From assembly GCA_029237695.1 (NCBI GenBank), contig CM055273.1, positions 55,603,968 to 55,667,967 on the forward strand: 64,000 bases of DNA, in the 5' to 3' direction. Below the pieces are notes generated by a model. It had not been told where the DNA came from. It worked only from the letters and a program-made list of their open reading frames with translations, and ran no database searches. The stretch comes from Conchocele bisecta. Lineage: Eukaryota; Mollusca; Bivalvia; Lucinida; Thyasiridae. The position numbers were made by a program, and so were the translations under genes. Below, in pieces: positions 6,456-62,504 of the stretch. Each line of letters begins with the position of its first letter. Positions within the stretch are counted from its first letter, which is position 1.

Positions 6456-7130
6456 CAGACCCGGACTCAAATATACCGAAACGATTTAAAACGCAACAAG
6501 GAGACAAATGTATATGAATATAAATGAGATATGTATTCACCCATTACATACTTTGGCAACACATTTGAGTATGAGGGTAAATATCAATTCATTATTTGTC
6601 CAAAGAACCTATAATCGATACATCAACGTCACGTGGTACACTGCGGCCACATGGGATCACGTTGGAGTGTCCAATCACATGACTTCCTCCTTGTTAGGGC
6701 CCATTGCTACTGACCGTACGTCCGTCTGTTCGTTTATCTTTTTAAAAGTTTTCGTAAGAGTTTCTCAAATCACCTATATAAGTTATATTTGCCTTCAGCT
6801 AATATATTCTTATTGCACACATGCCTTACCTGTGTAACGATACATCCTTCAACATTAATACAATTACCGTCACTACTGATCGTACGTCCGTCCGTCTGTC
6901 TGTGTATTTGTCTTTTCAAATCACCTATAGTGTGTCGACAGACCAGATTCTCTAGTTGCGGTTTTAAATCGTTTCTGTATATAGTGTTACGCAAGAAGAT
7001 CAGAGCAGACTAGCCCTAGAAACCCCGCTGCCGATGACGTTGGATGCCACATATTACAATAGATAGCTGATTAAATTTCCAAAGATCAATGAATTGCCGA
7101 TAACAATAAAAATGACACACACGTCCAATT
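6456..7130. other. Unassigned stretch with short phased repeats
   Basis: No gene is recognised. Two passages share 'GTACGTCCGTCTG' / 'CAAATCACCTATA' wording (about 6710-6780 and 6875-6930), an imperfect direct repeat ~165 bp apart. This resembles the family BB motif of CTGTCCGTCTG-type text. Confidence 0.4.
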
Positions 7131-8032: not shown

Positions 8033-8392
8033 ATAATTCCAGCACAAAAATATTTACACAATTCCCTAACATTTGATTGGCCCGTAGCAAGTATCTGTCC
8101 AAAATTTATATCCCAGTAAACTCCCACGCCGAACTACTTTCCGTAACCGTCAGGCGCAGTTAAAATAATTCTTAATAAAACGGAAAATAAACACATTTTC
8201 TTGATGAATTTAATTCAAATGCTGGAATTATAAGGAATGAATGGCCTTTTTGTTGAATTTATCGGGGATATAAACTTGGAAAAGTCGCGGGAATACTGGA
8301 CGAGGCCTTCCGGCCTTCGTCCAGTATTCCCGCGACTTTTCCAAGTTTATACCCCGATAAATTCCACAAAAAGGCCATTCATTCCTATAGTA
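8033..8392 (-). mobile_element. Family A element, copy 4
   Basis: The unit (8033-8226) is followed by an intact hairpin (8227-8392) centred near 8308. It is very close to copy 2 (1488-1850). The 87-aa frame at 8237-8500 is the hairpin. Confidence 0.8.
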
Positions 8393-8723: not shown

Positions 8724-9064
8724 ATAGAGAATAGTAGGTTAGTGCCGTGAATGGGAAAACATATCTGGCAAGGCTTGGGAAACGGGATGGGCGAGGCTTT
8801 GCCGAGCCCCTCCCGTTTCCGTGCAGCGCCAGATATTTTTTCCCATTCACGGCACTAACCTACTATTATATTTATCCCGTCAACACTACAAATAGCTTTA
8901 AAATGCCAAAAAAGATAACCCCAGCCACATCCTCAAAATCTAGAATCGACTAGTATGACAACCGCACATATTCATACGCAGTGATTAGCTCGTATTGACA
9001 GGATATCAAACATGTTTCATGGCACCATGTTTCACGGCACATACGCACTGTGTTGACGGGATAA
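8724..9064 (+). mobile_element. Family E element, copy 2 (long E2)
   Basis: E1 (8724-8870) has the standard arms 'GAATGGGAAAACATATCTGG' and 'CCAGATATTTTTTCCCATTC' around 'GGGATGGGCGAGGC'. E2 (8871-9064) is the long form containing 'AACCCCAGCCACATCCTCAA' and the paired 'CACGGCAC' motifs. A truncated M element abuts it. Confidence 0.85.
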
Positions 9065-11872: not shown

Positions 11873-12056
11873 GATGTCTCTCCCATCCGTGCTGGGTGAT
11901 TGGTATAATATTTGCCTACGTCAGTCCCTGCATGCCAGATCACGTGACTTTCCAAAACTTACATGTATGCTTACTCAACCATAAACTGACACATATGCCT
12001 CTCACTTATAGCCAGTATATCCAGGAACATGGCAAGTAATGTAACACGAACTATGC
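11873..12056 (+). repeat. Family Q repeat, copy 1
   Basis: From 'GATGTCTCTCCCATCCGTGC' through 'TGGGTGATTGGTATA', 'GCCAGATCACG' and 'CTCACTTATAGCC' to 'ACATGGCAAGTAATG' it matches 13307-13485. No ends or inverted repeats are evident; nature unknown. Confidence 0.6.
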
Positions 12057-12077
12057 ACAGTGTGATACATGTACACG

Positions 12078-12146
12078 GTGAAGCCTCTCTAAACCGGACA
12101 CACTGGGGACCTCCCAGGGTGTCCGGTTTCGAGAGGTTTCACTGTA
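12078..12146. mobile_element. Family H hairpin
   Basis: 'TGAAGCCTCTCTAAACCGGA' with its inverse around 'GGGGACCTCCCAGG'. An extended-H fragment follows (12147-12240, 'TCATTCTGAGCCATAGCTGT'). Confidence 0.75.
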
Positions 12147-14955: not shown

Positions 14956-15530
14956 ATGTGCATGTATGAGCAGTGGTACCATTTTCACTTTCAAACACTA
15001 ATTGCCTGATCAAGTATACATTAATATATTTATGTAACAATGACAGACCGACAGTCACTGCATAATTGTCTTATAAAAGTTTAATAGTTCGCGTGTCTCG
15101 CTTCCGAGTTGAAGCTACCTAATGGATAATACATGTGCATGTATATGGTTTGGCCATAGAGATGTTGCCATTTCGCCAGTTGCGGGTCAGTAAGGTCAAA
15201 CACTGCAACTCCCGTTGTAGATACGGACGGTATGGAAGTTGTGTAGAGTTACTGTCCACAACTTCATTTTACATTGTTACAAAGGCAATCACCAAACGCG
15301 AAAACACAACATTCAGGTAAAATATTCTCCATTTTGTGGCTTCAATTTACTGCTATTTCGCCTTCGAAAATATACGTGTGTCTGTATGCGAAAATCAGTA
15401 GAGTTTCGTCATTGTGTCAAACTGCGAAATCAATTTCGCGAAATGTCAGGTGGAAGCTTCTTGTTTTCGCGCTTCAATTTTGAAAAATGTGAAGAGATAC
15501 ATGTACGCATATCCGGATTTCAACGAATGC
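14956..15530. other. Unassigned stretch with three overlapping short frames
   Basis: Frames of 61, 99 and 69 aa overlap in different phases (15135-15538). None has a recognisable motif or clear coding bias. The text repeats 'CTTCAATTT' and 'TTTCGCG' phrases (15346, 15473), which suggests decayed repeat rather than exon. Confidence 0.35.
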
Positions 15531-15534
15531 AATA

Positions 15535-15795
15535 CTGACGTTTCATTGGTCGAACGATGACACATGACACTATCAAATTACGTCAGTGTAATCACGCAAG
15601 GTACACATACTTTTCAACGAAAAACCTGGTCATAGTTGCTCAATATGTAGCAGAAAACGTTATCTGACTAGAATATCATGGTAGAGTCATTTTATATCAT
15701 TTTTCCAAGCACGGTTCGGAAATGGCAAGCCTCGGAATTCCTACGCGTTTCCTAACCGTGTATGTTACGCTTGACATCAAAATACACTAACCTGG
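15535..15795 (-). mobile_element. Diverged D-like element
   Basis: 'GTTTCATTGGTCGAACGATG', 'TTACGTCAGTGTAATCACGC' and 'GTTATCTGACTAGAATATCA' follow the order of the reversed D2 module at 58280-58530. A worn D1 hairpin follows ('CGGAATTCCTACGCGTTTCC', 'GACATCAAAATACACTAACC'). Confidence 0.55.
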
Positions 15796-19128: not shown

Positions 19129-19565
19129 ATAGAGAATTATAGGTTAATGCCGTGAATGGGAAAAAATATCCGGCAAGGCTCAAGAATTTCTTTATTTCTC
19201 ATCAGAAGTATATGTTGTGACCACTCATTTGAACCGTATCGCCGAGACGGTTCAAATGAGTGGTCACAACATATACTTTGGTTCAGAAATAACGAAAATA
19301 GATAGAGAATAGTAGGTTAGTGCCGTGAATGGGAAAACATATCTGGCAAGGCTCAGGAAACGGGATGGGCGAGGCTCTACCGAGCACATCCCGTTTCCGT
19401 GCCGCGCCAGATATGTTTTCCCATTCACGGCACTAACCTACTATTCTATTTATCCCGTCAACACCTACAAATGGCTGTAAAATGCAAAAATAGTATTGAC
19501 TGGATATCAAAAATGTTTCACGGCACCGTGTTTCACGGCACATACGCACTGTGTTGACGGGATAA
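19129..19565 (+). mobile_element. Composite E/F element, copy 1
   Basis: Order: E1 left arm (19129-19190) cut after 'GGCAAGGCTCAA'; F hairpin (stem 19206-19278, 'AAGTATATGTTGTGACCACT' and inverse); complete E1 (19302-19448); short-form E2 (19449-19565). The same junctions recur at 23057-23493 and, inverted, at 41896-42320, so the composite multiplied as one unit. No coding frame. Confidence 0.9.
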
Positions 19566-19662
19566 ATATCAGACTCATTCACATATTTATTACACAAGCA
19601 AATTATTAGTTTAACGCAGTACATGCAAAATACATATTTACGGGTATATATGATTATTTTTG

Positions 19663-19752
19663 TTATTTCTCAATGAAAGTATATGTTGCGACCACTCATT
19701 TGAACCGTCTCGATGAGACGGTTCAAATGGTGGTCGCGACATATACATCTAA
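19663..19752. repeat. F hairpin without E
   Basis: 'AAGTATATGTTGCGACCACT' and 'GAACCGTCTCGATGAGACGG' with the inverse arm. Adjacent 'TTATTTCTCAATG' matches the F flank in the composites. Confidence 0.7.
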
Positions 19753-20625: not shown

Positions 20626-20839
20626 AATTTGCAAATGATAATAACACATGTGGTTAATTTTTAATTTGTACGCATTAAACTGACTATATTTGTACATGAC
20701 ATGGTGAGATTTCAATACACTATAATTATGTTTATCCGAAACCTCGACACCTATACGTATATACAGACTGCACGCTGATTCATAATTAACACATACAAAA
20801 AATAGTATCCTGCATTGATTAGATACGCATAAAGTGTCG

Positions 20840-21125
20840 GAACTACGTTCACTGATGTTCCATTGGTTGAACGGGGTCACGTGTCACATTACGCTACCGA
20901 ATTACGTCCGTGTATTGGCGCAACGTAAAGAAGTCCGTGTTCTTATCAACGAAAACCGTACTATATTTGCCAATACTCTATCATGAAATTTTACTTGATA
21001 ACATATAATGCCATACCAGTGTGTTGTTATATGAAGCTTATCAGACAAGGCCCGGAAACGGTCCGTTTCCGAGCCTTGTCTGATAAGCTTGAATTCACAA
21101 GACAGTATTTCGTTTCGGCTTATAT
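20840..21125 (-). mobile_element. Diverged D-like element with intact hairpin
   Basis: D2-like text ('GATGTTCCATTGGTTGAACG', 'GTGTATTGGCGCAACGTAAA', 'TTCTTATCAACGAAAACC') precedes a hairpin at 21034-21090 whose arms 'AAGCTTATCAGACAAGGC' / inverse meet at 'GGAAACGGTCCGTTTCC'. This keeps the D/E hairpin's GGAAACGG core. Confidence 0.65.
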
Positions 21126-24352: not shown

Positions 24353-24507
24353 ATAGAGAATACCAGGCTAGTGTCTTTTGATATCAAGTTTATCAGGCTC
24401 GGCTCGGAAACGGTAGGAATTCCTCGGCTGGCCTCGGAATTCCTACGCGTTTCCTAGCCTTGCCTGATAAACTTGATATTAAAAGACAATAGTCTGGTAT
24501 TCTCTAT
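24353..24507 (+). mobile_element. Family D hairpin module, copy 1 (no D2)
   Basis: 'ATAGAGAATACCAGGCTAGT' and 'AGTCTGGTATTCTCTAT' bound a hairpin whose left arm reads 'GGCTCGGCTCGGAAACGGTA' and right arm 'GCGTTTCCTAGCCTTGCC', the same unequal pairing as in other D copies. Confidence 0.85.
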
Positions 24508-24674: not shown

Positions 24675-24810
24675 GCACGGGCACTGCACATGTCATTTGG
24701 GATTCTGTTAGAGAAAATGGATATTACTTCTTATAGGAGTTCGGAGCGTCGCTTTCTAACAGTATACACTGACCAATTTACTAACGGGGACCAAATTTCT
24801 TTTACATTGG

Positions 24811-24876
24811 AGCTCCTCAAAACGGGACACTCTGGGGACCTCACAGGGTTTCCGGTTTAGAGAGGTTCCACTGTAA
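24811..24876. mobile_element. Family H hairpin, diverged
   Basis: 'CTCCTCAAAACGGGACACTC' and 'TTTCCGGTTTAGAGAGGTTC' with 'GGGGACCTCACAGGG' between. Confidence 0.65.
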
Positions 24877-25813: not shown

Positions 25814-25877
25814 CGGCGTTTTTAACCAATTTCAAATATTGTTAAATAATTATGAGGTCATATTGTTATATGTATAC

Positions 25878-25946
25878 AGTGGAACCTCTCCAAACCGAAC
25901 ACCCTGGAAGGTCCCGAGTGTATCCGGTTTGGAGATGTTACAATGT
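25878..25946. mobile_element. Family H hairpin
   Basis: 'CAGTGGAACCTCTCCAAACC' and inverse 'GGTTTGGAGATGTTACAATG', centre 'CCTGGAAGGTCCCGAG'. An H terminal scrap also lies at 26043-26075. Confidence 0.7.
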
Positions 25947-26151
25947 AAATTCGCGACACATTCTAGTGTTTTGCAATCATGAAAATTGTAATTAGAGATA
26001 TATAACAGCCAAACACATCTAAGGTAAACATCTATATATTTTCCAGAGTGTCCAGTTTAGAGGGTTTCCACTGTACATACTTCACAAATTAAAGCAGTCA
26101 CTTAAGGTGATCCATGTTGCATATTATTTGTAAGAATGTTTAGCAATGCTT

Positions 26152-26357: not shown

Positions 26358-26771
26358 TCATTGTTGTACATCCCGGCGTAACAAATACGTTACAGACGTG
26401 AGTCGGCATATATGATGCTGGATTTATGAACATTGTCTCATTTATAAATATTATATTTCCGACTTGTTTGCACATCCCATACACGTTTGAAATTTTCCAT
26501 TTTCACACTAGACTTTTTGCGTTTCCGACAATTAATTACCGTTATTTATGATTAATAATACGTTGTGATTGATATTCAGCTTCCATTTCCACAATACAGC
26601 CGACTGGCAGGTTAAGTGCACGGGGAGATAGAGTAACTATACCCGACCGGCGAACTGACGAGCTCCCGAGAAAACGCGCCTTCTGTTGATTGGCACCAGT
26701 GGCTGTATAATCACATTGTGGTGAATTTCGCGGGCGGTATGTACATGTACACCTGTCGGTACATGTACGTA

Positions 26772-27126
26772 GATAATACCAGGCTATTGTCTTTTAATAT
26801 CAAGTTTATCAGGCTCGGCTAGGAAACGCGTAGGAATTCCTCGGCTTTCCTACCGTTTCCGAGCCGAGCCAGATAAACTTGATATCAAAAGACAGTAGCC
26901 CGGTATTCTATTTATCAGATAACGTTTAATGCTCGAAAATTACCACAGATTACGTCGTTATCTATAGACAGAATGCGGACTTGTTTACGTTGCGTCATTA
27001 CATTGACGTCAATCAGTAACGTCACGTGACGTCATCCGACCAATGGAACGTCAGTTTTCACTTAGCTGTAACCCGGATGTTTGTATCAGTCAGTACGTCG
27101 GTCAATACAGGGCAGGTTATCTGATG
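26772..27126 (+). mobile_element. Family D element, copy 2 (D1+D2)
   Basis: D1 26772-26910 with core 'GGAATTCCTCGGCTTTCC'; D2 26911-27126 from 'TTTATCAGATAACG' to 'GGGCAGGTTATCTGATGA', inverted ends. D2 interior: 'GACTTGTTTACGTTGCGTCA', 'AACGTCACGTGACGTCATCC'. Confidence 0.8.
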
Positions 27127-27315
27127 ACTGTATATCTATGTCCTCCACACCCGGGGGAGCGGTAGGCGTACGGGGGCGGCATTAGACGGCTAAATGTCGT
27201 CTCTATCGGCAAACGATATAATGAAATCTGTGTCAATGTCGACAGACATATCCTAAGGTAAGTGTGTTCAACTAGTGGAACAGTGCAGTTACAACGATAC
27301 ATATCAGGCAGAAAT

Positions 27316-27905: not shown

Positions 27906-28332
27906 TCTCAGCCGGAAAACCCGGGTTAATGTACACATAGTTACAGAATACAATCGTGTCATATTTGACACAACGCCGGATATCGTTCATTTGATTTTAA
28001 AATAACTAATATATTTCACCCAATAGGTTTACATTTTAAATGAAGTTTGCAGAGTAAATTGTTAATGGACGCTTTTAAAACGCCATTAGTCAAATGCATG
28101 TGGGTTCCACTTTCGGCCGATCATATCATGTTCTGTAACCGAACTACTCCGAGTTAAATGTTTTAAATATGATACCGATGTGTGTATTGTTTCTAACGTA
28201 TGATTAATGATGACAGTAATGATAAATTGTAAAGCAATAACGTTTGAATGATGATCTGGAAACAAAGTACAACGCTGTCTAAACGATGAATATTATTTAT
28301 TAAAAGCTCTTGATAGGTCACTATGGGGAGGG

Positions 28333-29632
28333 AGTGTGTATCTGTATAGGTAGAGCGACGGTACGGCAAACCAGAGGTGCCTGGTTTTTGGGCCCCGCGG
28401 CCAGGTATGCGTGCTTCTTGACATGCAACAGTGCATATGTATAGGTAGAGCGACCGTACGGCAAACCAGAGGTGTCTGGTTCGATCCCCGCGGCCAGGTA
28501 TGCGTGCTTCTTGACATGCAACAGTGCATATGTATAGGTAGAGCGATTGTACGGTAAGCCAGAGGTGCCTGGTTCGAGCACCGCGGCCAGGTATGCGTGC
28601 TTCTTGACATGCAACAGTGCATATGTATAGGTAGAGCGATTGTACGGTAAGCCAGAGGTGTCTGGTTCGAGCACCGCGGCCAGGTATGCGTGCTTCTTGA
28701 CATGCAACAGTGCATATGTATAGGTAGAGCGACCGTACGGCAAACCAGAGGTGCCTGGTTCGAGCACCGCGGCCAGGTATGCGTGCTTCTTGACATGCAA
28801 CAGTGCATATGTATAGGTAGAGCGACCGTACGGCAAACCAGAGGTGTCTGGTTCGAGCACCGCGGCCAGGTATGCGTGCTTCTTGACAATGCAACAGTGC
28901 ATATGTATAGGTAGAGCGACCGTACGGCAAACCAGAGGTGTCTGGTTCGAGCACCGCGGCCAGGTATGCGTGCTTCTTGACATGCAACAGTGCATATGTA
29001 TAGGTAGAGCGACCGTACGGCAAACCAGAGGTGTCTGGTTCGAGCACCGCGGCCAGGTATGCGTGATTCTTGACATGCAACAGTGCATATGTATAGGTAG
29101 AGCGATTGTACGGTAAGCCAGAGGTGTCTGGTTCGAGCACCGCGGCCAGGTATGCGTGCTTCTTGACATGCAACAGTGCATATGTATAGGTAGAGCGACC
29201 GTACGGCAAACCAGAGGTGTCTGGTTCGATCCCCGCGGCCAGGTATGCGTGCTTCTTGACATTCAACAGTGTATCTGTATATGTAGAGCGACCGTACGGC
29301 AAACCAGAGGTGTCTGGTTCGAGCACCGCGGCCAGGTATGCGTGCTTCTTTACATTCAACAGTGCATATGTATAGGTAGAGCGACCGTACGGCAAACCAG
29401 AGGTGTCTGGTTCGATCCCCGCGGCCAGGTATGCGTGCTTCTTGACATTCAACAGTGTATCTGTATATGTAGAGCGACCGTACGGCAAACCAGAGGTGTC
29501 TGGTTCGACCCCGCGGCCAGGTATGCGGGCTTCTTGACATGTAACAGTGTATCTGTATATGTAGAGCGATTGTACGGCAAGCCAGAGGTGCCTGGTTCGA
29601 GCACCGCGGCCAGGTATGCGGGCTTCTTGACC
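28333..29632 (+). repeat. Tandem array of 14 tRNA-like units (~92 bp)
   Basis: Fourteen units, each with 'TAGGTAGAGCGA', 'GTACGGCAAACCAGAGGTG' and 'CTGGTTCGATCCCCGCGG' or 'CTGGTTCGAGCACCGCGG'; 'GCGGCCAGGTATGCG' marks every unit (28396, 28489, 28583 ... 29605). GGTTCGATCCC is a perfect B-box type; the A-box side is reduced. Spacers read 'GCTTCTTGACATGCAACAGT'. Two solo relatives lie at 30132 and 30532. Long frames on both strands (up to 431 aa) are artefacts of the repeat. Confidence 0.9.
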
Positions 29633-29682
29633 TGTAACATTTGGCGCCCTATGGTTTTTTTATACTCAAGGTACATATACTC

Positions 29683-29892
29683 TATGATCGCCGGTTTATC
29701 TTTCCGTCTGTCTGTCCGCGTGTCTGTCTGTCCGAGATGTGCTTTAACGTTTTCTGGTACCTACACTCTATGTAGCGGTACGTGGGATTGGCTTGAAACT
29801 TCATATGCTTTGTCATCATCCATATGTTCATTCTGGGGCCCACTCATGCGGCATATGTGTCCAAAGACAGAATCAAATGACTTAGTTAAGTT
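29683..29892 (+). repeat. Family BB repeat, copy 1
   Basis: 'TCCGTCTGTCTGTCCGCGTG', 'TTTAACGTTTTCTGGTACCT', 'GGATTGGCTTGAAACTTCAT' and 'CATCATCCATATGTTCATTC' match 58930-59118 in order. It resembles a common animal repeat, but its class is unknown to me. Confidence 0.55.
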
Positions 29893-30130
29893 TTTGAAGA
29901 GTGTTGCCAATTCCATGCGTATGAAAATTGGCCCAAAGAATCTTCCATACCAGGGGCCCGTTTCACTAAACTTCGTACGACTACAATGTTCGTAAGTGCA
30001 AAATTATGATAGTCTGTACATTTCGCATTAACAATGTTTTCTTGTAAACAATTATTGAATTTACATTTATTGAGCATAGGCTGCATATGCAGCCTATGCT
30101 CAATAAATGTAAATCCATCAATTGAAATTT
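29893..30130 (+). mobile_element. Duplicated flank + family G element
   Basis: 29893-29954 duplicates 16005-16070. G starts 'GGGCCCGTTTCACTAAACTT' at 29955, with a full core hairpin at 30058-30115, and ends early at 'CATCAATTGAAATTTCAG', where a tRNA-like sequence begins. Confidence 0.75.
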
Positions 30131-32541: not shown

Positions 32542-32582
32542 TGATATCTGACAGCCACAATGTCACATATAAAACAAACCAC

Positions 32583-32845
32583 GTGATTGTGTAGCTAAGA
32601 AGATGGGCGATATCTCATGCAAAACGTTTACACAATGTCTGATAGTTTCCATACACGACGCCAGAAGTTGACGAAATGTTCAGAGCAAATGCGGAATTCC
32701 ATTCCGCATTTACTCTGAACATTTCGTCAACTTAGGAAGTCATTTACGGAAATTATCACAGTTTCGGTAAATATTTTTCAGGAAAAATCGCACATCTTCT
32801 CAGATACAAAATTACGTGGTGTGTCTCATATGTCGTGTCTAATAG
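32583..32845. mobile_element. Family K palindromic element
   Basis: Arms 'CACGTGATTGTGTAGCTAAG' / 'CAGATACAAAATTACGTGGT', inner stem 'AGTTGACGAAATGTTCAGAG' and inverse around 'GGAATTCCATTCC'. About 260 bp, non-coding. Confidence 0.75.
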
Positions 32846-33117
32846 AATGATTGGTCATGCAGCATTGTTCAACCGTGCGGGGACGGGGATGGGATTTTAA
32901 CAATAACTCGCGTCTTATTGCACTAAATCCATGGAAATGAACAGGATGGAGTTAAAGGCAATTAATCTCAGGATGCAGGCTCGCGTCGCTATGTGAAAGT
33001 AGACGTTATCGTATACAGGCGTTTTTATCTTTGCCTAGAAGCACGTCGAAAATCAACGTTTTAGTATGTGGCGTTAATTTTGTGTGGGAAAGCTCAGTTC
33101 TGTTGCATTTTACAACC

Positions 33118-33180
33118 ATTTGTAGGTGTTGACAGGATACATAGAATAGTAGGTTAGTACCGTGAATGGGAAACATATCC
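33118..33180 (-). mobile_element. Family E junction remnant
   Basis: The E2 end 'TGTAGGTGTTGACAGGATAC' joins the E1 start 'ATAGAATAGTAGGTTAGTAC', then breaks at 'GGGAAACATATCC' into P. Confidence 0.65.
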
Positions 33181-34709: not shown

Positions 34710-35511
34710 TATTTACTACATTTCCACGGCGGATATATATGCACATTTAGTCTATGTTTTAGATTATAATCAATTATTTGTGATGTGCGCATGAATAGTT
34801 ATACAATTACGTGTTTTCCCGCGTTTTGACGTCACGTAAACTTTTTGAAATCCAAATTACGCAGTTGTTTCTATGAACCAGATATATTTGAGTGTATGTT
34901 TAGAATGTGTTCAATCTCATTGACATTCTAGATTAGTCGAGACCCTTTCCAAATTTTCATATAACTTTATTTTGACTGTAATAAAAAATAAACATTGTGC
35001 ATGGTAGCTCGTGGTTTCCAAGAAAACAGGCGTGCAATTACGGATGTTCTCTTTACGGTGTATTATTTGTAAGGAGTTGATTACGGGTTTTCTCTCACAT
35101 CGAAACCCGTGCAAATAATTTGCAGGAGTGTAATAAAGTGCCTTAGAAACCAAACAATCCTAGACAAATCAGGAGATTGTCCACTGAGACCCGAGTTGCA
35201 TCACAGCTGCTGTACGGGGTAATCGAATAAATCACGGTCTCCTGTGGAACAATTCCTGATCTGACGTCATCTCAATTTCCAAAATGACATGTAATAAATA
35301 AATTACGATTTTTAGCACAATGTCTTAATATACTGCGAATTTCCATTGTATGCAATATACATGTACAGTGGAATCCCTCTAAACCGGACACTCGGGAAAA
35401 TATGGATTTTTAACTTAGATGTGTTTCCCTGGTATCTATCTCTGATTACAATGACCTTTCGTGAAACACTATAATGGATCATGAAGCGCTAACATGTCTA
35501 AGTTACAATGT

Positions 35512-35577
35512 AACATCTCCATACCGGACACCCTGGGGACCTCCCAGGGTGTCCGGTTTGGAGAGGTTCCATTGTAC
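35512..35577. mobile_element. Family H hairpin
   Basis: 'TAACATCTCCATACCGGACA' and 'GTCCGGTTTGGAGAGGTTCC' around 'CCCTGGGGACCTCCCAGGG'. Another H half lies at 35366-35395. Confidence 0.75.
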
Positions 35578-35837: not shown

Positions 35838-36049
35838 CAGCGGAAACTCTCTAAACCGGACACCAAGAAAACACCTGTGATCTTATTTTTGATGAGTTAC
35901 TTGGTCATTTATCTCAGGCGATAATGTCACGATGTTCATGATCGCATAGCACACAACTATAACTCAGAAGTATCACAACTCAGAAGTATCTCTAAACCGG
36001 ACCCCTGGGGGACCTCCCAGGGCGTCCGGTTTAGAGAGGTTTCACTGTA
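35838..36049 (+). mobile_element. Extended family H element
   Basis: Left half-hairpin 'GGAAACTCTCTAAACCGGAC', interior 'AAGAAAACACCTGTGATCTT', 'GGTCATTTATCTCAGGCGAT', 'ATCGCATAGCACACAACTAT', then a right full hairpin (35986-36048). A local duplication, 'CACAACTCAGAAGTATC', lies at 35964-35995. Confidence 0.75.
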
Positions 36050-36164
36050 TATGTATTTCTTGTCTGTTTTCATGCATATGTTCAAATCTCCGCAAGGAGG
36101 AACTAAAGAGTATATTATGTGCATGTAATGCATGATTTTCTCTCATATTTCAACGAAAACAGAT

Positions 36165-36305
36165 AAATACAGTCGAACCTGTGTTAAAGACCACCTCCGA
36201 ATAGCAATCACCTGGCTGTAAAGGCCACACGCTTGTTGTCCCAATGGCACAATTACTATATAAATGACCCTGTGAATAAAGACCACCTGTGAACAAAAGG
36301 CCGGG
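36165..36305. repeat. GACCACC-type repeat
   Basis: 'ACAGTCGAACCTGTGTTAAA' with repeated 'AAAGACCACCT' / 'AAGGCCACAC' phrases. Similar wording at 21628-21650 suggests a dispersed family. Confidence 0.45.
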
Positions 36306-39160: not shown

Positions 39161-40112
39161 AGGGATTGGCTTAATCACAGGATGTCCTGTGTTTTTTATT
39201 TAGGTACTTAATCACAGGGATTGTTCCTGGTTTGTTTATTTAGTACCATTAATCACAGGGATTGTCCTGTTGTTTATAGTTTAATTAATCACAGGGATTT
39301 GGTCTTAATCCACAGGGATGTCCTGTGTGTTTTATTTAGTACCTCTTTAATTTCACCAGGGATCGTCCTGTGTGGTTTTATACGTAATCACAGGGATTGT
39401 CCTGTGTGTTTATTTAGGTACTTAATCACAGGGATTGTCCTGTGTGTTTATTTAGGTACTTAATCACAGGGATTGTCCTGTGTGTTTATTTAGGTACTTA
39501 ATCACAGGGATTGTCCTGTGTGTTTATTTAGGTACTTAATCACAGGGATTGTCCTGTGTGTGTTTATTTAGGTACTTAATCACAGGGATTGTCCTGTGTG
39601 TTTATTTAGGTACTTAATCACAGGGATTGTGTGTGTTTATTTAGGTACTTAATCACAGGGATGTTCCTGTGTGATTAGTACAATACAGGGATTGTCCTGT
39701 GTGTGTTTATTTAGGTACTTAATCACAGGGATTGTCCTGTGTGTTTATTTAGGTACTTAATCACAGGGATTGTCCTGTGTGTTTATTTAGGTACTTAATC
39801 ACAGGGATTGTCCTGTGTGTGTTTATTTAGGTACTTAATCACAGGGATCCTGGTGTATTTAGGTACTTCTGTGTTGTTTATTTAGGTACTTAATCACAGG
39901 GATTGTCCTGTGTGTTTATTTAGGTACTTAATCACAGGGATTGTCCTGTGTGTTTATTTAGGTACTTAATCACAGGGATTGGTCTGTGTTTGGAATATTT
40001 ATGGTACTTAATCACAGGGATTGTCCTGTGTTATGTACTTAATCAGATTTGGTCCTTGTGTGTTTATTTAGGTACTTAATCACAGGGATTGTCCTGTGTT
40101 TATTTATCTCGC
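39150..40112 (+). repeat. 38-bp satellite array
   Basis: The unit 'TTTATTTAGGTACTTAATCA' + 'CAGGGATTGTCCTGTGTG' (38 bp) is repeated about 24 times. Some units have an extra TG. Many units at 39170-39390, 39650-39690, 39840-39880 and 39980-40060 carry single-base gains and losses. Each unit has the inverted motif 'ACAGGGATTGTCCTGT'. Confidence 0.95.
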
Positions 40113-40796: not shown

Positions 40797-40954
40797 CCAA
40801 ATGCAATTTGTTCAAACACTGTTGATGACGATAAACCATGGATCTGACAAATGTATATTGCTCACTGACGGAATCATCAAATCACTGACATGACAATCCA
40901 TTGGTCGAAAGACATCACATGATGTTTCTGAGTGACAGCAGCGTAATGACGTAA

Positions 40955-41260
40955 TTTATCCCGTCAACACAGTGCGTATGTGCCGTGAAACACGGTGCCG
41001 TGAAACATTTTTGATATCCTGTCAATACGACCTAATCACTGCGTATGAAAATGTGCAGTGGCTGGGGTTATTTGTTTTGCATTTTAAAGCTATTTGTAGG
41101 TGTTGACGGGATAAATAGAATAGTAGGTTAGTGCCGTGAATGGGATAAATATCTGGCGCGGCACGGAAACGGGATGTGCTCGACAGAGCCTCGCCCATCC
41201 CGTTTCATAAGCCTTGCCAGATATTGTTCCCATTCACGGCACTAACCTACTATTCTCTAT
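40955..41260 (-). mobile_element. Family E element, long E2, inverted, inside a D2 remnant
   Basis: E2 40955-41115 then E1 41116-41260. The preceding 'CAATCCATTGGTCGAAAGAC' ... 'GCAGCGTAATGACGTAA' is D2-like, so E interrupted a D-type element. A D1 end follows ('AGACACTAGCCTGGTATCAG', 41302-41322). Confidence 0.8.
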
Positions 41261-41333
41261 ATCAACGTTTACTAATCTCACCTGATAAACCTGATAGCAA
41301 AGACACTAGCCTGGTATCAGATGTTAAAGGTAC

Positions 41334-41775: not shown

Positions 41776-41837
41776 TTTATATACGCATAGTTTATAAAAA
41801 ATAAATAAAAAATAACATTTTGTTCTTATAACCCACC

Positions 41838-41881
41838 CAATGTATACGTTGTTACCACGCATTTGAACCGTCTCGTTAAGG
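41838..41881. repeat. F hairpin, half copy
   Basis: 'GTATACGTTGTTACCACGCA' and 'TTTGAACCGTCTCGTTAAGG'; the second arm is lost, just before a composite E/F. Confidence 0.5.
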
Positions 41882-44228: not shown

Positions 44229-44632
44229 ATAGAGAATACCAGGCTAGTGTCTTTTGATATCAAGTTTATCAGGTAAGGCTAGGAAACGCGTAGGAATCCC
44301 GAGGCTTGCCGAGGAATTCCTACCGTTTCCGAGCCGAGCCTGATAAACTTGATATCAAAAGACACTAGCCTGGTATTCGATTTATCAGGTAACGGGTTTT
44401 GCTCGAAAATGACAACAGATGGCGTCGTTATCTATGGACAGAACGAGGACTTGTTTACGTTGCGTCATTACACTGACGTAATTCGGTAACGTCACGTGAC
44501 ATCATCCGACCAACGGAACGTCAGTTTCCACTTATTTGTAACCCGGATGTTTGTATCAAGTCAATGCCTCATACAACAATATGTTATCAGTCAGTACGTA
44601 TTCGTTCAATACAGGGCAGGTTACCTGATAAA
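44229..44632 (+). mobile_element. Family D element, copy 3 (D1+D2)
   Basis: D1 44229-44380, D2 44381-44632 ('TTTATCAGGTAACGGGTTTT' to 'GGGCAGGTTACCTGATAAA'). D2 holds 'GGTAACGTCACGTGACATCA' and 'GTAACCCGGATGTTTGTATC'. Confidence 0.85.
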
Positions 44633-45590: not shown

Positions 45591-45749
45591 ATTGTATGCT
45601 TGTTTGGTATAGAAAGAGAGAGAAGTCTACAGCTGATATGAATCACTTTCGTTGAAGATTCATTGACCAACTGCTGTTACGTTTACGTACTGAACGACGA
45701 CAGTGTCATGTCCCTATGTAAAGAAGTCCTCGTTGCTTTCACCGAAAAC

Positions 45750-46460
45750 AGCGATACAGTAGAACCTCTCAAAATCGGACACGCAGGTAATCTGTGTATC
45801 TTTAATTGTATGGGTTTCATTGGTGTATATGTATGATGATAATGCCTGTTCAAGTTCGCGAAGCACAGCCGCATACCTTGACTTAGCCATATGTCTGATT
45901 TACAGTGGAACATCCCAGGGTGTCCGGTTTAAAGAGGTTACACTGTAACTTGCGCAGTTCATAGTACAGTAGAACCTCTCTGAACCGGACACCTTGGCGA
46001 CGCCATTTCGTTTAATTTAGTTGGGTTTCACTGTCATTTCTTTCATTATCGTGTCTTTTCGAGATTGAAAATGACAAAAAAATGTTCATGGATCGCTTAA
46101 TTACAGTAGAACCTCTCTAAACCGGACACCCTGGCGACCCCATTGCGTTTAATTTAGTTGGGTTTCACTGTCATTTCTTTCATTGTCGTGTCTTTTCATG
46201 ATAGAAGAATACAAAAACTGTTCTTGGAGCGCTTAATTACAGTGGAACCTCTCTAAACCGGACACCCTGGGAGGTCCCCAGGTTGTCCGGTTTAGAGATG
46301 TTCCAATGTAAATCTGGCCGCATTGTAACATTCTGATACGTATTTGGATGATTTGAACTGATGGATATACATTATCATCTAATATAAAAGAAACCCATCA
46401 CACATAAGATCACAGACGGTATATTGGTGTTCGGTTTAGAGATGTTTCACTGTATATGTG
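45750..46460. repeat. Cluster of family H elements (west)
   Basis: H halves or hairpins at 45757, 45901-45947, 45968, 46103, 46237-46311 and 46432. Two neighbouring units (45966-46095 and 46101-46235) repeat 'GGGTTTCACTGTCATTTCTT' and 'CGTGTCTTTTC', a ~135-bp tandem duplication. Confidence 0.75.
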
Positions 46461-46882: not shown

Positions 46883-46923
46883 TCACCTGGCTTCAGAACG
46901 TGATGATGTAATGCTCATGTAAT

Positions 46924-47038
46924 GTATCCCGCCAACACAGTGCGTATGTGCCGTGAAACACGGTGCCGTGAAACATTTTTGATATCCTGTCAATACGACC
47001 TACTCACTGCGTATGAATATGTGCGATTGCCACGTCTG
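46924..47038 (-). mobile_element. Family E2 fragment
   Basis: 'TATCCCGCCAACACAGTGCG' to 'CACTGCGTATGAATATGTGC', long form, without E1. An M scrap follows at ~47058-47120. Confidence 0.65.
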
Positions 47039-47174: not shown

Positions 47175-47664
47175 TGTATACAGTGGAACCTCTCTAATCC
47201 GGACACCAAGAAAACCTCCATGACCTCATGCTCGATGAGTTTCTTGGTCATTTATCTCAGGTGATAAATAGAGAATATTAGGTTAGTGCCGTGAATGGGA
47301 AAAAATATCTGGCAAGGCTCAGGAAACAGGATGGGCGAGGCTCTGCCGAGCACATCCCGTTTCCGTGCCGCGCCAGATATGTGTTCCCATTCACGGCACT
47401 AACCTACTATTCTATTTATCCCGTTAACACCTAAAAATGGCTGTAAAATGCAAAAATAGTATTGACTGGATATCAAAAATGTTTCACGGCACCGTGTTTC
47501 ACGGCACATACGCACTGTGTTGACGGGATAATGTATGTTAGTGATCTCATAGCACACACATATAGCTCAGAATGAGCAAATGCCTGATTTACAGTGAAAC
47601 CTTTCTAAGCCGGACACCCTGGGGACCTCCCAGGGTGTCCGGTTTAGAGAGGTTTCACTGTACT
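47175..47664 (+). mobile_element. Extended family H element split by E
   Basis: Left 'CAGTGGAACCTCTCTAATCC' to 'TTTATCTCAGGTGATAA' (47267), right resumes 'ATAATGTATGTTAGTGATCT' (47528) and ends in hairpin 47590-47664. Intact relatives read 'CAGGCGATAATGTCACG' (35926) across this point. Confidence 0.8.
47268..47531 (+). mobile_element. Family E element, copy inside H
   Basis: E1 47268-47414 and short E2 47415-47531. ATAA lies immediately left (47264-47267) and again at the right edge (47528-47531), so a 4-bp duplication is possible, but the right-hand GATAA is also present at every other E end. Confidence 0.85.
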
Positions 47665-48605: not shown

Positions 48606-48796
48606 ACATAAATGTGTCATTGGCCCGTTTTTGTTGTTGTTGTTTTTTTCTAGAGATAAAAAAACCCGGTGATTGGATTTGTGAACGACGGTTGACGGGC
48701 GGCTGCAGCGACGGCGGAGGCAATGTCCACAATGTTCAGTTACTCCGTTTAACACATTTGTAACGGTCCATTTTCAGGCGATATATTTAGTTTCAA

Positions 48797-49017
48797 CTAC
48801 TGTGAAACCTCTCTAAACCGGACACCCCGGGAGGTCCCCAGGGTGTCCGGCTTAGAGAGGTTTCACTGTACATCAGGCATTTGATCATTGTGAGCCATAG
48901 GCGTGTGCTATGCAATCACGAACAGACATTATCACCTGAGATAAATGACCAGGAAACTCATAAAAAATAGCATCACAGGTGTTTTATGGGTGTCTGATTT
49001 AATGGGCTTTCACTGCA
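48797..49017 (-). mobile_element. Extended family H element, intact, inverted
   Basis: Hairpin 48797-48870, then 'TGTGAGCCATAGGCGTGTGC', 'ACATTATCACCTGAGATAAA', 'CATCACAGGTGTTTTATGGG' to the terminal 'GGGCTTTCACTG'. This copy shows the empty site of the E insertion at 47268. Confidence 0.8.
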
Positions 49018-49156
49018 TGATAATTTGGCTGCTTCTAAAATTTCATTCAATAAATGTTTTTTTCACATTGCTGGGCCCTTTGAAATATGTTCAGTTGCTG
49101 TGTTTCGCAAATGTGTAAGGGTCCACTTTCAGTTTCCACTAACCGATTTTAACCAG

Positions 49157-49556
49157 TAGCCTATTTCACCAACATTGCAAAGTATACTTTTCCAGCAAAG
49201 TATACTTTGAGGGAGAAATTTTCAATTTTAGGATAAATTTATTAATTTTTATTATACTGAATTTATTACATTATCACAGCCATTTTGGCTGTGATAATGT
49301 AATAAATTCAGTATAATAATTCTGCATACTTTTGATCATCAAACATATGCAGTCGTTAGTTGTATATTAAATAATGCATTTCGGGGGAAATAATTGATTA
49401 CTCCCTCAAAGTATACTTAGCTAGATCAGTAGCTTAGCACCTTTGTCTTTGTGGCAGTAGAGAGTGCTGTCGTTAGTTATACATGTATATGAAATAATGC
49501 ATTTCAGGAAAAATAAAAACAAAAAAGTATACTTTGCAATGTTGGTGAAATAGACA
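49157..49556. mobile_element. Family B MITE, copy 2 (right side duplicated)
   Basis: 'AGCCTATTTCACCAACATTG' to 'CAATGTTGGTGAAATAGAC'. The right arm is extended by a second partial copy of 'ATGAAATAATGCATTTCAGG' text (49360-49385 and 49490-49515). Confidence 0.8.
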
Positions 49557-49760: not shown

Positions 49761-50101
49761 TTTATCCCGTCAACACAGTGCGTATGTAACGTGAAACACG
49801 GTGCCGTAAAACATTGTTGATATCCTGTCAATGCGACCTAATCACTGCGTAAGAATATGTGCGGTTGCCATACTAGTCGATTCTCCGATTTTGAGATGCG
49901 ACTGGGGTTATTTTTGGCATTTTAAAGCTATTTGTAGTGGTGACGGGATAAATAGAATAGTAGGTTAGTGATACGTGAATGAGAAAACATATATGGCGCG
50001 GCACGGAAACGGGATGTGCTCGGCAGAGCCTCGCCCATCCCGTTTCCTAAGCCTTGCCAGATATGCTTTCCCATTCACGGCACTAACCTACTATTCTCTA
50101 T
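49761..50101 (-). mobile_element. Family E element, long E2, inverted
   Basis: E2 49761-49953 with 'TTGAGATGCGACTGGGGTTA', then E1 to 50101 with 'GAAACGGGATGTGCTCGGCA' and 'CCTAAGCCTTGCCAGATATG'. Confidence 0.85.
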
Positions 50102-50534: not shown

Positions 50535-51060
50535 TGAACCTGTCGAACCTCTCTGAAACGGACGCACATGGTGTCCGGTTTACAGAGGTTCTAGTTCCGA
50601 GAGTGTCCGGTCTAGAGAAGTTCCACTACAGTGAAATCTCTCTCCGGACACCCTGGGAGGTCCACAGGGTGTCCGGTTTGGAGAGACTCCACTGTAAAGC
50701 AGGCATACGTTACTTTATATATGTTTGTATTATTATGCCTAGAATCAATGGTATTATAATTATTTGAGAGAAGATAGCTAAGCCACATTGAAAATGCGTA
50801 CCTGTCTTAGCTATAGGTTGCGGGTGTGAACAAGATACAAGTTTATACCTCTCTAAACCGGACACCATGGGAGGTCCCCAGGGTATCCGGTTTAGATAGG
50901 CTCCACTGTAAATCAGGCATACGGGCACCACAAAACTGGTATATGTGGTTTGTGATTATAAACTTACGTTATCAGCGGTGAGAGATGACAATAAACACAT
51001 ACACTTAAGTAGACATAGCCTTAGACGGGTGTCCGGTTTAGAGAGGTTCCAATATACGGG
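50535..51060. repeat. Cluster of family H elements (centre)
   Basis: H halves or hairpins at 50545-50592, 50600-50627, 50632-50697, 50851-50911 and 51025-51050. Several are tail to tail without interior. Confidence 0.75.
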
Positions 51061-51464: not shown

Positions 51465-51830
51465 GGTGTCCGGTTTATAGAGGTCTTCGTTCCGAGGGCG
51501 ACATGTTTAGCGATATTCTAGCTCCGAGGGGGTCAGGTCTAGAGGTATAGTGAAACCTCTCTAATCCGGACACCCTGTGAGGTCCCCAGGGTGTCCGGCT
51601 TAGAGAGGTTTCATTGTAAATTAGGTATTTTATCATTCTGAGCAATAGTTGTGTGATATGCGATCACGAGCAGACATTATCACCGGAGATAATGACATAG
51701 AAACTCATCAAAAATAACATCACATGCGTTTTCTTGGTGTCCGGTTTAGAGGCGTTCCACTGTATAGCTAACATCACAGGTGTTTTATTGGTGTCCGGTT
51801 TAGAGGGGTTCCACTGTATTCTAGCTACAT
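51465..51830. mobile_element. Family H pair, extended and duplicated
   Basis: H end at 51468; full hairpin 51547-51618 ('CTCTCTAATCCGGACACCCT'); interior 'TCATTCTGAGCAATAGTTGT', 'ACATTATCACCGGAGATAAT'; two successive 3' ends at 51738-51762 and 51788-51818 differing by 'AACATCACA' duplications. Confidence 0.75.
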
Positions 51831-51894: not shown

Positions 51895-52168
51895 ATATGC
51901 GACAAGCCTTGTGATTGTGTACCTTAGAAGGTACATGTATGTCATGAAAAATATTTACAAAATTCGCTATATATTCCGTAAATGATGTCGAAAGTTAACG
52001 AAATCTTCATAGCAAATGCGGAATAGTCTACCGACTATTCCGCATTTGCACTGAATATTTTGTCAACCTTCAACGTCATTTACAGAAAATATCACAGTTT
52101 CTGTAAATTATTTCATGAAAATTGCACATTTTCTTGCGTACAAAATCACATGGCTTGTCTTATATCGA
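51895..52168. mobile_element. Family K element
   Basis: 'GCGACAAGCCTTGTGATTGT' to 'AATCACATGGCTTGTCTTAT', stem 'AGCAAATGCGGAATAGTC' / 'GACTATTCCGCATTTGC', 'GATGTCGAAAGTTAACGAAA'. Complete, 270 bp. Confidence 0.8.
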
Positions 52169-55008: not shown

Positions 55009-55924
55009 GAATACACACCCGTTATCCGGAGATACGCAACTAGGGGAGGAGAACATGGAAAGGGGAACGCACAAACTAGTGGGAATTTGGAGGGTTTGTA
55101 AAATTAGCTAAAACAATATATTTTATGCATGATCAGAACAATGTGAGCTTGCAACGTTGAGGAAGAATGATTGAAGCACATGTAGCAAAAATATTGAGCT
55201 CGAACGCCGTCGTAAAAGTTGAAAATTTATAAATTCAATATAGGATTTTATTTTTTTTTGTAATTTTTGTTTAAAAAATCGTCTTTCCTGCACCAATCGT
55301 ATGCTTTTCAGCACTATCAGGCATACAGTTATGTTTGCTGATCATTTACACTGATACCTTGAAAGCGACAGCGACCAGGATATTCTGAGAAAAAAATGGC
55401 GGCCGTTTTATGCACCGTGGTATAGCGCAAAATGGTGCACAAAAACTATGGGACTGGAGGACACAAATTGGGGGACGAGTGCACACAAACTGTGGAACGC
55501 GCTGCACAGAAAATGCCAATATACGTGGGTTTTAAGTTGCAAATTCACGTATGTATTTACAAAAATATTATATTTGCAGACGAGGATCCACGAATATTTA
55601 CGCAGGGGCCGGTCCAAATGTGTCTGTAAGGAATTTATGCAAGTTTTTAATCAATATTCACCACAATTATGCATTGTTTTAGTAAGTTCGCTGTTCAATG
55701 CAGGCTTCTTTAGCAGCGCTCGTTTATTAATGGGCGAGCAGAGCCTCATTTCGTATGCAATCAGTAAACCCGTTTAATACATATCACACATTAAACCATA
55801 GGTCACCACCTAAACTCGCACCACACTTCGTTTATAACTTGAAGCACGGGGTTTGGGAGAATCAACCATGCGGAACTGAGTTAACCATGCTAATCGATGA
55901 CCAGGCGAAGTAGTGCAGCCAAGG

Positions 55925-56470: not shown

Positions 56471-57678
56471 TATATATACATACAATACAATTGCAGTGTT
56501 ACTTAGTATAAGTATGGTGTTTATATGTTGTATATACACATCACGGTGCTCTCCGACAAACAGTGGGTGCTACAGAAACAACAACGATTGCGTCACAAAC
56601 ATTCTATGACGGACGGAATGGTCGTAGGACGAACGAATGCACTTGTGAATCGATGGATTGGTTATCGCGGACAAAACTTTATGGCGACCCCCGAAATTCT
56701 GCGGATGAAATCATGTCGACTTGTCGTATGCCGTGCAAGCTTGCTGTGGTCTTTCTCCGGGTACTCCGGGTTTCCTCCGAGTTTAGGTGGTGACCTATGG
56801 TTTAATGTGTGATATGTATTAAACGGGTTTACTGATTAAATGAATACGAAATGAGGCTCTGCTCGCCCATTAATAAACGAGCGCTGCTAAAGAAGCCTGC
56901 ATTGAACAGCGAACTTACTAAAACAATGCATAATTGTGGTGAATATTGATTAAAAACTTGCATAAATTCCTTACAGACACATTTGGACCGGCCCCTGCGT
57001 AAATATTCGTGGATCCTCGTCTGCAAATATAATATTTTTGTAAATACATACGTGAATTTGCAACTTAAAACACGTATATTGGCATTTTCTGTGCAGCGCG
57101 TTCCACAGTTTGTGTGCACTCGTCCCCCAATTTGTGTCCTCCAGTCCCATAGTTTTTGTGCACCATTTTGCGCTATACCACGGTGCATAAAACGGCCGCC
57201 ATTTTTTTCTCAGAAGATCCTGGTCGCTGTCGCTTTCAAGGTATCAGTGTAAATGATCAGCAAACATAACTGTATGCCTGATAGTGCTGAAAAGCATACG
57301 ATTGGTGCAGGAAAGACGATTTTTTAAACAAAAATTACCAAAAAAAATAAAATCCTATATTGAATTTATAAATTTTCAACTTTTACGACGGCGTTCGAGC
57401 TCAATATTTTTGCTACATGTGCTTCAATCATTCTTCCTCAACGTTGCAAGCTCACATTGTTCTGATCATGCATAAAATATATTGTTTTAGCTAATTTTAC
57501 AAACCATCCAAATTCCCACTAGTTTGTGCGTTCCCCTTTCCATGTTCTCCTCCCCTAGTTGCGTATCTCCGGATAACGGGTGTGGAATATAGCAATAACT
57601 CACAAAAGAGCCGCCTACAAATTATGCCACAAATTGTATGACTAGGGATGTAGTCCCCGTTGAAAATTATGGCAGCGT

Positions 57679-57914: not shown

Positions 57915-58222
57915 GGTCTATTTCACCAACATTGCAAAGTATACTTTTCTAGCAAAGAATACTTTGAGGGAGAACTTTTAAATTTTAGGATAAATTTATT
58001 AATTGTTAATAAAATTATACTGAATTTATTACATTATCACAGCCAATTTGGCTGTGATAATGTAATAAATTCAGTATAATAATTCTGGATACTTTTAATC
58101 ATCAAATATATGCAGTGGTTAGTTCTATATGAAATAATGCATTTCAGGAAAAATAAATGATTACTCCCTCATAGTATACTTTGCTAGAAAAGTATACTTT
58201 GCAATATTGGTGAAATCGGCTA
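57915..58222. mobile_element. Family B MITE, copy 3
   Basis: 'CTATTTCACCAACATTGCAA' to 'GCAATATTGGTGAAATCGGC', core palindrome 58012-58080 with 'CACAGCCAATTTGGCTGTG'. Complete, ~305 bp. Confidence 0.9.
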
Positions 58223-58279
58223 CAGAGCAAATAGGACAAGATCATGTGCAGTCGGACCTCTATACATCGGAGAAGGGTG

Positions 58280-58683
58280 TTTATCAGGTAACTTGCCCTG
58301 CATTGACCGAATACGTACTGACTGATAACATATTGTTATATCATGCATTGCCCTTATATAAACATCCGGGTTACAACGAAGTGAAAACTAACGTTCCATT
58401 GGTCGGATGATGTCACGTGACGTTACCGAAAGGCGTCAGTGTAATGACGCAACGTAAACAAGTCCGCGTTCTGTCCATAGAATACGACGTCATCTAATGT
58501 CATTTTCGAGCATAAAACGTTACCTGATAAATAGAATACCAGGCTAGTGTCTTTTGATAGCAAGTTTATCAGGCTCGGCTCGGAAACGGTAGGAGTTCCT
58601 CGGCAAGCCTCGTAATTCCTACACGTTTCCTAGCCTTGCCTGATAAACTTAATATCAAAAGACACTAGCCTGGTTTTCTCTAT
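58280..58683 (-). mobile_element. Family D element, copy 4 (D2+D1, inverted)
   Basis: D2 58280-58531, 'TTTATCAGGTAACTTGCCCT' to 'CGTTACCTGATAAA'; D1 58532-58683, 'ATAGAATACCAGGCTAGTGT' to 'CTAGCCTGGTTTTCTCTAT'. Module order is the exact reverse of 44229-44632. Confidence 0.85.
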
Positions 58684-61936: not shown

Positions 61937-62092
61937 TGTAACAGGAAGAGAACGATATGCAGCCGGCCCGGGACTCGAACCCGGCACCTCCCGCTTACAA
62001 GGCGGTCGCTTTACCTTCTGAGCTAACCTAACCGGGCACAGATACACATCTTCTCTCCTGAGTTACTAGATCCGTACCGTGACATTCTCCCC
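61937..62092 (-). mobile_element. tRNA-derived SINE-like unit 1
   Basis: Reverse strand: 'GTCACGGTACGGATCTAGTA', 'CTCAGGAGAGAAGATGTGTA', tRNA-like part (61961-62037), then 'TTCTCTTCCTGTTACAATTG'. Next to the same unit at 62200-62346. The tRNA part has a 5-base duplication (TTAGG) at the acceptor/D junction that breaks the fold. Confidence 0.7.
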
Positions 62093-62199: not shown

Positions 62200-62346
62200 C
62201 AATTGTAACAGGAAGAGAAAAATATGCACCCGACCCGGGACTCGAATCCGGCACCTCCCGCTTACAAGGCAGTCGCTCTACCGACTGAGCTAACCGGACA
62301 CAGATACATATCTTCTCTCCTGAGTTACTAGATCCGTACCGTGACA
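62200..62346 (-). mobile_element. tRNA-derived SINE-like unit 2
   Basis: Same order as unit 1, ~263 bp downstream, with 'GGAAGAGAAAAATATGCACC' and 'ACTAGATCCGTACCGTGACA'. The pair is a tandem duplication, or two insertions of one family. Confidence 0.7.
62228..62299 (-). tRNA. tRNA-like, anticodon TGT (Thr-type), within SINE unit 2
   Basis: On the minus strand the 72-nt sequence folds as a cloverleaf. The 7-bp acceptor (GTCCGGT with GTCGGGT) uses several G-U pairs; D arm 'GCTCAGTCGGTAGAGC'; anticodon loop CTTGTAA (TGT); T arm 'CCGGATTCGAGTCCCGG' with one A-C mismatch. A box 'TAGCTCAGTCGG' and B box 'GATTCGAGTCC'. Because its flanks are duplicated with it at 61937, it is probably a SINE head or pseudogene rather than a working tRNA gene. 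Confidence 0.5.
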
Positions 62347-62432
62347 CAATTACATGATCAGATGACGTCAAAAGATGACCCGGGGGCGTGGAATTTCAAG
62401 TTGAAACCCAAACGGTTCATAAGAAGGGAAGA

Positions 62433-62504
62433 CAGTGGTGCCTCTCTAAACAGGACACCCTGGGGACCTCCCAGGGTGTCCGGTTTAGAGAGGCTCCACT
62501 GTTA
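62433..62504. mobile_element. Family H hairpin
   Basis: 'AGTGGTGCCTCTCTAAACAG' and 'GGTTTAGAGAGGCTCCACTG' around 'CCCTGGGGACCTCCCAGGG', followed by extended-H text to 62640 ('GCAATCACGAACATGCATTG'). Confidence 0.75.

Follow-up and report, generated by a model that had tools for sequence, protein, structure and literature searches.

The repeat families D and E, distributed through the 64-kb window (the whole stretch of DNA analysed here, AT-rich at 60%, repeat-dense and eukaryotic in appearance), raise the question of whether each copy is a pair of joined modules or a single element of an unusual kind. An earlier note had read the two families as one superfamily, in which a hairpin (module 1) is joined to a second module with TTTATC and GATAAA edges. 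D and E were mapped in the window by motif scans and by nucleotide profiles built for each module. The two joined modules are more likely one element that had been read backwards: module 2 is most likely the body between asymmetric terminal inverted repeats, and module 1 the 3′ terminal hairpin. D, E and a third family, A, are probably non-autonomous elements that work in the manner of Helitron2/Helentron-type (HINE) rolling-circle transposons, and they are described here as Helitron2/HINE-like and not as proven members. It is easy to classify elements of this kind as MITEs, or as a pair of adjacent repeats, and the rolling-circle fraction of a genome is then undercounted. The reading, if real, offers a route to recognising rolling-circle elements with no enzyme gene in view.

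Beginning at the outer side of module 2, the parts of an E element are, in order, TTTATCCCGTCAACA, the body, TGTTGACGGGATAAA, a T, the hairpin AGAATAGTAGG...CCTACTATTCT and CTAT, and those of a D element are TTTATCAGGTAAC, the body, GTTACCTGATAAA, a T, the hairpin AGAATACCAGG...CCTGGTATTCT and CTAT. The terminal inverted repeat is asymmetric and 13-15 nt long, namely, the 15-nt TTTATCCCGTCAACA in E and the 13-nt TTTATCAGGTAAC in D. Motif scans found TTTATC edges with GATAAA inverses in both families, as had been proposed for module 2. The eight E copies with both ends have 107-196 nt before a hairpin of 131-148 nt; in the three D copies that retain both ends, of which one is diverged at the 5′ end, 220-253 nt precede a hairpin of 141-151 nt. 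Across these 11 copies, a distance of 131-151 nt separates the 3′ repeat from the 3′ end, and each hairpin contains 47-64 pairs. The description of module 1 as a hairpin was borne out by the hairpin-edge motif TAGAGAATANNAGGNTAGTG, which occurs 28 times in the window with up to 3 mismatches allowed (0.14 expected; maximum of 1 in 100 shuffles), and by the folding of two hairpins, with z values of −15.3 (E40955) and −15.7 (D58280). No significant 5′ hairpin was detected in the four 5′ ends folded (two E and two D; z of −1.31, 0.51, −0.23 and 0.72). The arms of the D hairpin (44265-44277 and others) also carry TTTATCAGG, with which the D terminal repeat begins, and a full D element therefore has this motif approximately four times.

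Two D copies are full elements. The first occupies 44229-44631 on the minus strand, with TTTATCAGGTAAC at 44632 (its first T is read as host), the body, the inverse repeat and a 151-nt hairpin at 44229-44379 whose 3′ end is CTAT. The second lies at 58281-58683 on the plus strand, with the body up to 58532 and the hairpin at 58533-58683. The copy at 26769-27129 (minus strand; hairpin 26769-26909) is full-length with diverged ends. Two decayed copies at 15504-15795 (lacking the 5′ end) and 20803-21107, both on the plus strand and both recovered by nhmmer, keep the order of body and hairpin; they are additions to the earlier copy list. A D body fragment was matched by profile at 45654-45753 (plus strand). 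Old pieces of D hairpins, none with a body, are clustered at 1851-2282 (plus strand), and the A copy at 1487 lies at the left edge of this cluster. The sequence at 24353-24507 (plus strand by profile polarity), previously taken for a two-module D copy, is a solo hairpin without module 2, and it has free-type ends, ATAGAG...CTCTAT, on both sides.

Full E elements were located at 3615-3939 (minus strand; hairpin shortened to 131 nt), 40956-41260 (plus strand; flanked by D fragments at 40891-40957 and 41266-41317) and at 8724-9064 (minus strand) and 49762-50101 (plus strand). A short E without extension lies at 47268-47531 (minus strand), in a site that has empty relatives in the window. Two plus-strand fragments comprise the 3′ part of the body with one hairpin arm (33095-33179) and the 5′ end with part of the body, lacking the 3′ repeat and the hairpin (46923-47038). 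The copies at 19129, 23057 and 41896, which had been listed simply as E, do contain E and are longer composites.

Profile search with nhmmer returned 17 module-2 matches in the window; 14 extend to the junction, the remaining three are fragments that fall short of it, and the 5′ end is also present in 11 of the 17. A module-1 match was found within 12 nt of every junction-reaching copy (14/14), and in the window the modules do not occur mostly apart, the outcome that the earlier note had named as decisive against its own reading. The fixed module order that it reported holds in all 14. Polarity of module 1 is constant by at least 25 bits in 12 of them, with exceptions in fragment 33095, which is almost tied at 2.0 bits towards that polarity, and in the decayed D copy at 20803, which scored 3.2 bits better on the opposite strand. 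This adjacency bears on the view that D and E are cut-and-paste MITEs, in which a DDE transposase would have moved the TTTATC-repeat body and the hairpin would be a second, palindromic MITE lodged beside it. Such a view would accommodate the solo hairpin with symmetric free ends at 24353 and the abundance of fold-back palindromes in the window (33 listed, some of which are F or D pieces), but it leaves the hairpin on the same edge of 14/14 junction-reaching bodies, in two families with homologous hairpins and in A besides, and whole D and E elements have no target duplication, whereas a MITE has terminal inverted repeats with a flanking target site duplication. We consider it improbable, in agreement with the earlier judgement that the dyad is not a plain MITE.

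The two families are related through their hairpins. The E hairpin profile scored 44.2, 40.0, 31.2 and 22.2 bits against the four D hairpins, and the D profile scored 22.3-40.1 bits against the eight E hairpins; as controls, one D hairpin was shuffled 300 times with its palindrome preserved, and only 3 of these shuffles scored at all (maximum 1.8 bits), while the reversed window gave no more than 4.3 bits. The D and E hairpin consensuses are identical in 93 of 145 aligned columns and have the same arm asymmetry. Judged by this similarity, the D and E hairpins are homologous, and the grouping of D and E into one superfamily with a common plan was upheld. The statement that the families differ in almost all of their sequence has to be narrowed to the bodies, between which the profile search detected no similarity at an E value of 1e-3. 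In a joint alignment of 12 hairpins (the solo hairpin at 24353 is in the alignment and outside the D consensus), 94.9% of cells are paired, compared with 39.9-50.2% when the partners are slid. Changes on both sides of a pair account for 46 cells, compared with 16.7 in shuffles, and affect 13 of 46 pairs, a value reached by 17 of 500 shuffles; further pair types show no excess (20 versus 21.3 in shuffles). Most both-sided changes go back to a single difference between D and E that four D copies inherited. Given this and the shuffle results, the covariation indicates pairing kept between two families and not many independent events.

Target duplications were sought in flanks and empty sites. The longest agreement between the flanks of an element averaged 2.33 nt in 12 elements, compared with 2.54 nt for mismatched left and right flanks. 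E47268 sits in another repeat family, empty relatives of which are present within the window; its flanks, joined as we built them, are one base longer than the empty site at the junction in 7/7 non-self alignments among the nine listed, one of which has an extra 4-base difference nearby, and this evidence compares a single insertion with seven relatives. The junctions fix the element as TTATC...CTCTAT without target duplication. The insertion point slides rightward by a few bases because TTATC is common to host and element. For E3615, one empty-site relative (36159-36281) shows no visible duplication, and the junction is inexact because this relative has 78% identity. Within the window, empty sites bridging the junction were found neither for D nor for A, and none was found for the solo hairpin at 24353. 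A target duplication of whole D and E elements was accordingly rejected by the flank test (12 elements) and the empty sites of E47268 and E3615; separate duplications for each module, which the earlier note would have taken as a sign of two independent elements, were likewise not seen in the whole elements tested. A T precedes TTATC in 8 of the 10 copies with clear ends (p = 0.0016), and the base following CTAT is A in six, T in three and G in one, giving nine A/T bases among ten (p = 0.048); the ends had already been seen when the two preferences were tested, and the 10-copy count leaves out D26769 (diverged 5′ end), the solo hairpin at 24353 and the truncated copy at 46923.

Comparison with known systems draws on the available parts of PMC4067079, PMC3627910, PMC7492417, PMC4778049, PMC3422177, PMC5148889 and PMC5139131, and what follows is limited to those parts. 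In Helitron2, the terminal inverted repeats are short and asymmetric, and the one at the 3′ side directly precedes a hairpin, at approximately 20-30 bp from the 3′ end; members are recognised by a repeat of 8-15 bp, 0-2 bp from the 5′ end, with its inverse upstream of the 3′ hairpin, and by a RepHel protein in an autonomous partner (Bao and Jurka 2013; PMC3627910). The same source reports a 5′ hairpin involving the 5′ repeat, a T preference at the 5′ end, one non-autonomous family nearly always without target duplication, and duplications of 7-19 bp in the CRe-1, 2 and 3 elements (PMC3627910). The present families resemble this description in their repeats of 15 nt (E), 13 nt (D) and 12 nt (A) with the inverse upstream of the 3′ hairpin, and D and E also in the T preference at the 5′ end and the lack of target duplication. 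They differ from it in that 131-151 nt, instead of about 20-30, separate the D/E 3′ repeat from the 3′ end, four D/E 5′ ends folded gave no hairpin, and no RepHel was seen in the window.

HINEs provide a second point of comparison. In mites, they have repeats of 12-15 bp, a palindrome of 5-10 bp and a distance of 38-60 bp between repeat and 3′ end, and they leave the target site unmodified (PMC4067079); the oyster Cg_HINE has two modules and a 3′ palindrome (PMC7492417). HINE/Helentron insertion is described as occurring between two T, with an autonomous partner that carries an endonuclease fused to RepHel, and in Fusarium Helitrons the 3′ repeat is placed 20-40 nt from the 3′ end. D and E share with HINE/DINE-1 elements a non-coding two-part plan, subterminal repeats, a 3′ palindrome, the absence of target duplication and T-rich sites. 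An unmodified target, as in HINEs, was found exactly at one E insertion and inexactly at another, along with the 12-element flank test. The hairpin of 47-64 pairs departs from the 5-10 bp palindrome of mite HINEs, and the 3′ hairpin of D and E is several times longer than in the available descriptions of Helitron2 and HINE. No 3′ hairpin of this size appeared in titles or abstract openings among the literature matches listed, and six sequence strings from the window retrieved no papers. A search of viral_contigs with the hairpin-edge pattern gave 0 exact matches. A one-base-longer edge pattern gave 6 matches in genome_contigs, where approximately 7 would be expected by chance (our own estimate, assuming equal bases), and these were rejected because none had the inverse arm within 400 nt.

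The order of repeat, body, inverse repeat and hairpin, found in 14/14 junction-reaching D/E copies and in A, argues for rolling-circle transposition, as do the absence of target duplication in D and E, the T before the element, the hairpin-side extension of three copies and the pairing kept between the D and E hairpins. Under this reading, the 5′ end would be the asymmetric terminal inverted repeat, starting with TTTATC in D and E or being ATAATTCC in A, and its inverse lies at the inner side of the oversized 3′ hairpin, which has CTAT as its terminus. The nick at the 5′ repeat would be made by a RepHel protein supplied from elsewhere, whose involvement we infer; one strand would then be peeled off from this repeat and stop at the 3′ hairpin, with the direction of transfer and the role of the hairpin as terminator both presumed, and the freed strand would be joined into a T-flanked site without target duplication. 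Counted against this reading are the 3′ repeat at 131-151 nt, the lack of a 5′ hairpin in the four ends folded, the solo hairpin at 24353, the covariation that stems largely from one difference between the families, the post hoc testing of the T preference and the derivation of the empty sites from one exact and one inexact insertion. No RepHel gene was seen in the window, where the four open frames of at least 150 aa lie in or beside a tandem array, and a Pfam search of 10 of the 13 open frames of at least 100 aa gave nothing of the transposase kind. A Nodulin_C match in the tandem-array frame 29156-29992 (26.6 bits against a cut-off of 26.5) was rejected as an effect of composition, with no single stretch passing. 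The lack of target duplication and of a transposase in the window would also suit another class of element, such as a tyrosine- or serine-recombinase element with the hairpin as the recombinase site. We hold this to be highly improbable, given that a short terminal repeat with its inverse just inside the 3′ hairpin is the plan stated for Helitron2 and that 3′ extension with a new end, a known outcome for Helitrons, is seen here.

This extension is carried by three composites. E19129 (19129-19565, minus strand) consists of an E part at 19302-19565, an F palindrome and one further 3′ hairpin arm with CTCTAT at its end; E23057 (23057-23493, minus strand) has the same structure at a different site, as does E41896 (41897-42320, plus strand), with its first 3′ end at 42148 and its second at 42320. 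Up to the first CTCTAT, the three share 96-98% identity among themselves and 96% with E47268. Beyond it comes a stretch of about 115 nt that includes the F palindrome, and then a second copy of the outer hairpin arm, 58-60 nt long and ending in CTCTAT; relative to an E47268-like element, the composites are extended only past the hairpin side. In Helraiser, the 3′ hairpin is a terminator, the bypass of which leads to 3′ extensions with new ends (PMC4778049). D and E resemble it in the 3′ hairpin and, through the composites, in the 3′ extension with a new end; unlike them, Helraiser/Helibat has TC/CTAG ends and a 19-bp palindrome (PMC4778049), and terminal inverted repeats are absent from the available part of its description. 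The presence of the composite at three sites, always ending at the second terminus, is consistent with read-through past the first terminator.

The composites could instead be nested insertions or segmental duplications and not read-through products. The F palindrome does occur elsewhere in the window (19654-19750 and 41837-41876), and F pieces lie 5′ of two composites, 41896 (20-57 nt away) and 19129 (about 110-180 nt away), which indicates that nesting in or beside F occurred. The 400-nt outer flanks of the three composites, by contrast, have nothing in common apart from F pieces at differing distances, and every composite stops at the second terminus, from which it follows that the composite moved as a unit. 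We therefore regard nesting or duplication as an unlikely account of the three copies. The extra sequence likely arose when an ancestral copy became nested beside F and the entire unit then transposed, and nesting may account for all of it.

Family A has the same arrangement, namely, ATAATTCCAGCA, body, TGCTGGAATTAT, a hairpin of approximately 157 nt (longer in the copy at 1-396) and ATTCCTATA, in four copies. Its body is 198-199 nt long including both repeats, which are 12 nt in the two best copies, with ATAATTCC at the 5′ end. Full copies lie on the plus strand at 1487-1843 (72 pairs, −79.0 kcal/mol) and 8033-8389 (73 pairs, −86.8 kcal/mol). On the minus strand, the copy at the window edge (1-396) has a longer hairpin (83 pairs, −95.1 kcal/mol) and an inner repeat changed at two positions, and the copy at 4369-4666 has lost most of its inner hairpin arm (30 pairs, −8.4 kcal/mol). 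The A hairpin was not matched to the D/E hairpins by profile; with no similarity detected, the plan is common to families whose hairpins are unrelated in sequence. A scan for a repeat beside a hairpin matched 11 of the 50 hairpins scored (two A, four E, three composites and two others, at 41060-41311, which spans E40955 with a partner from another repeat, and at 63159), and it was not exhaustive, since the D copies went undetected, as did two of A and four of E.

A more specific proposal is that the families represent a distinct rolling-circle lineage, in which the 3′ terminator would have grown to a hairpin of about 150 nt, and unrelated hairpins (A versus D/E) would occupy the same slot, be kept paired, accumulate to provide alternative 3′ ends and be mobile on their own as double-ended hairpins. 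We offer this as a doubtful extension of the rolling-circle reading. Among maize Heltir and mosquito ATon elements (PMC3422177), 3′-type ends on both sides are described for Heltirs, and the solo hairpin at 24353 is like them in this; the difference is that D and E possess a distinct 5′ end. With three neighbouring families that have oversized hairpins, one of which naturally has two 3′ ends, the size and sequence needs of the terminator would become testable.

The window contains other repeats. One fold-back family forms a palindrome for most of its extent and has arms with CAAAGTATACTTT (57918-58226, 6152-6456 and 49156-49431), and a second has AAGTTGACGAAATGTT arms (32565-32833, 51902-52165, 4866-5082 and fragments). 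A hairpin around CAGTGGAACCTCTCTAAACCGGACACC, which we tentatively call pogo-like, is present in eleven copies (12047-12146, 24776-24875, 25848-25947, 35477-35576, 35950-36049, 46211-46310, 47563-47662, 48771-48870, 50811-50910, 51519-51618 and 62404-62503), and E47268 is inserted near one of them. A 93-nt tandem unit fills 28294-29617 in twelve register positions, with long frames open on both strands, and a broken array of a 38-nt tandem unit covers 39365-40057. Rfam at gathering scores gave nothing in the window beyond two tRNA matches. A tRNA-Thr (TGT) is predicted at 62226-62299 on the minus strand, and a second tRNA-like match lies at 61968-62025. The segments 55014-55759 and 56841-57584 form a near-perfect inverted repeat (99-100%) of more than 700 nt with a 1.1-kb spacer.
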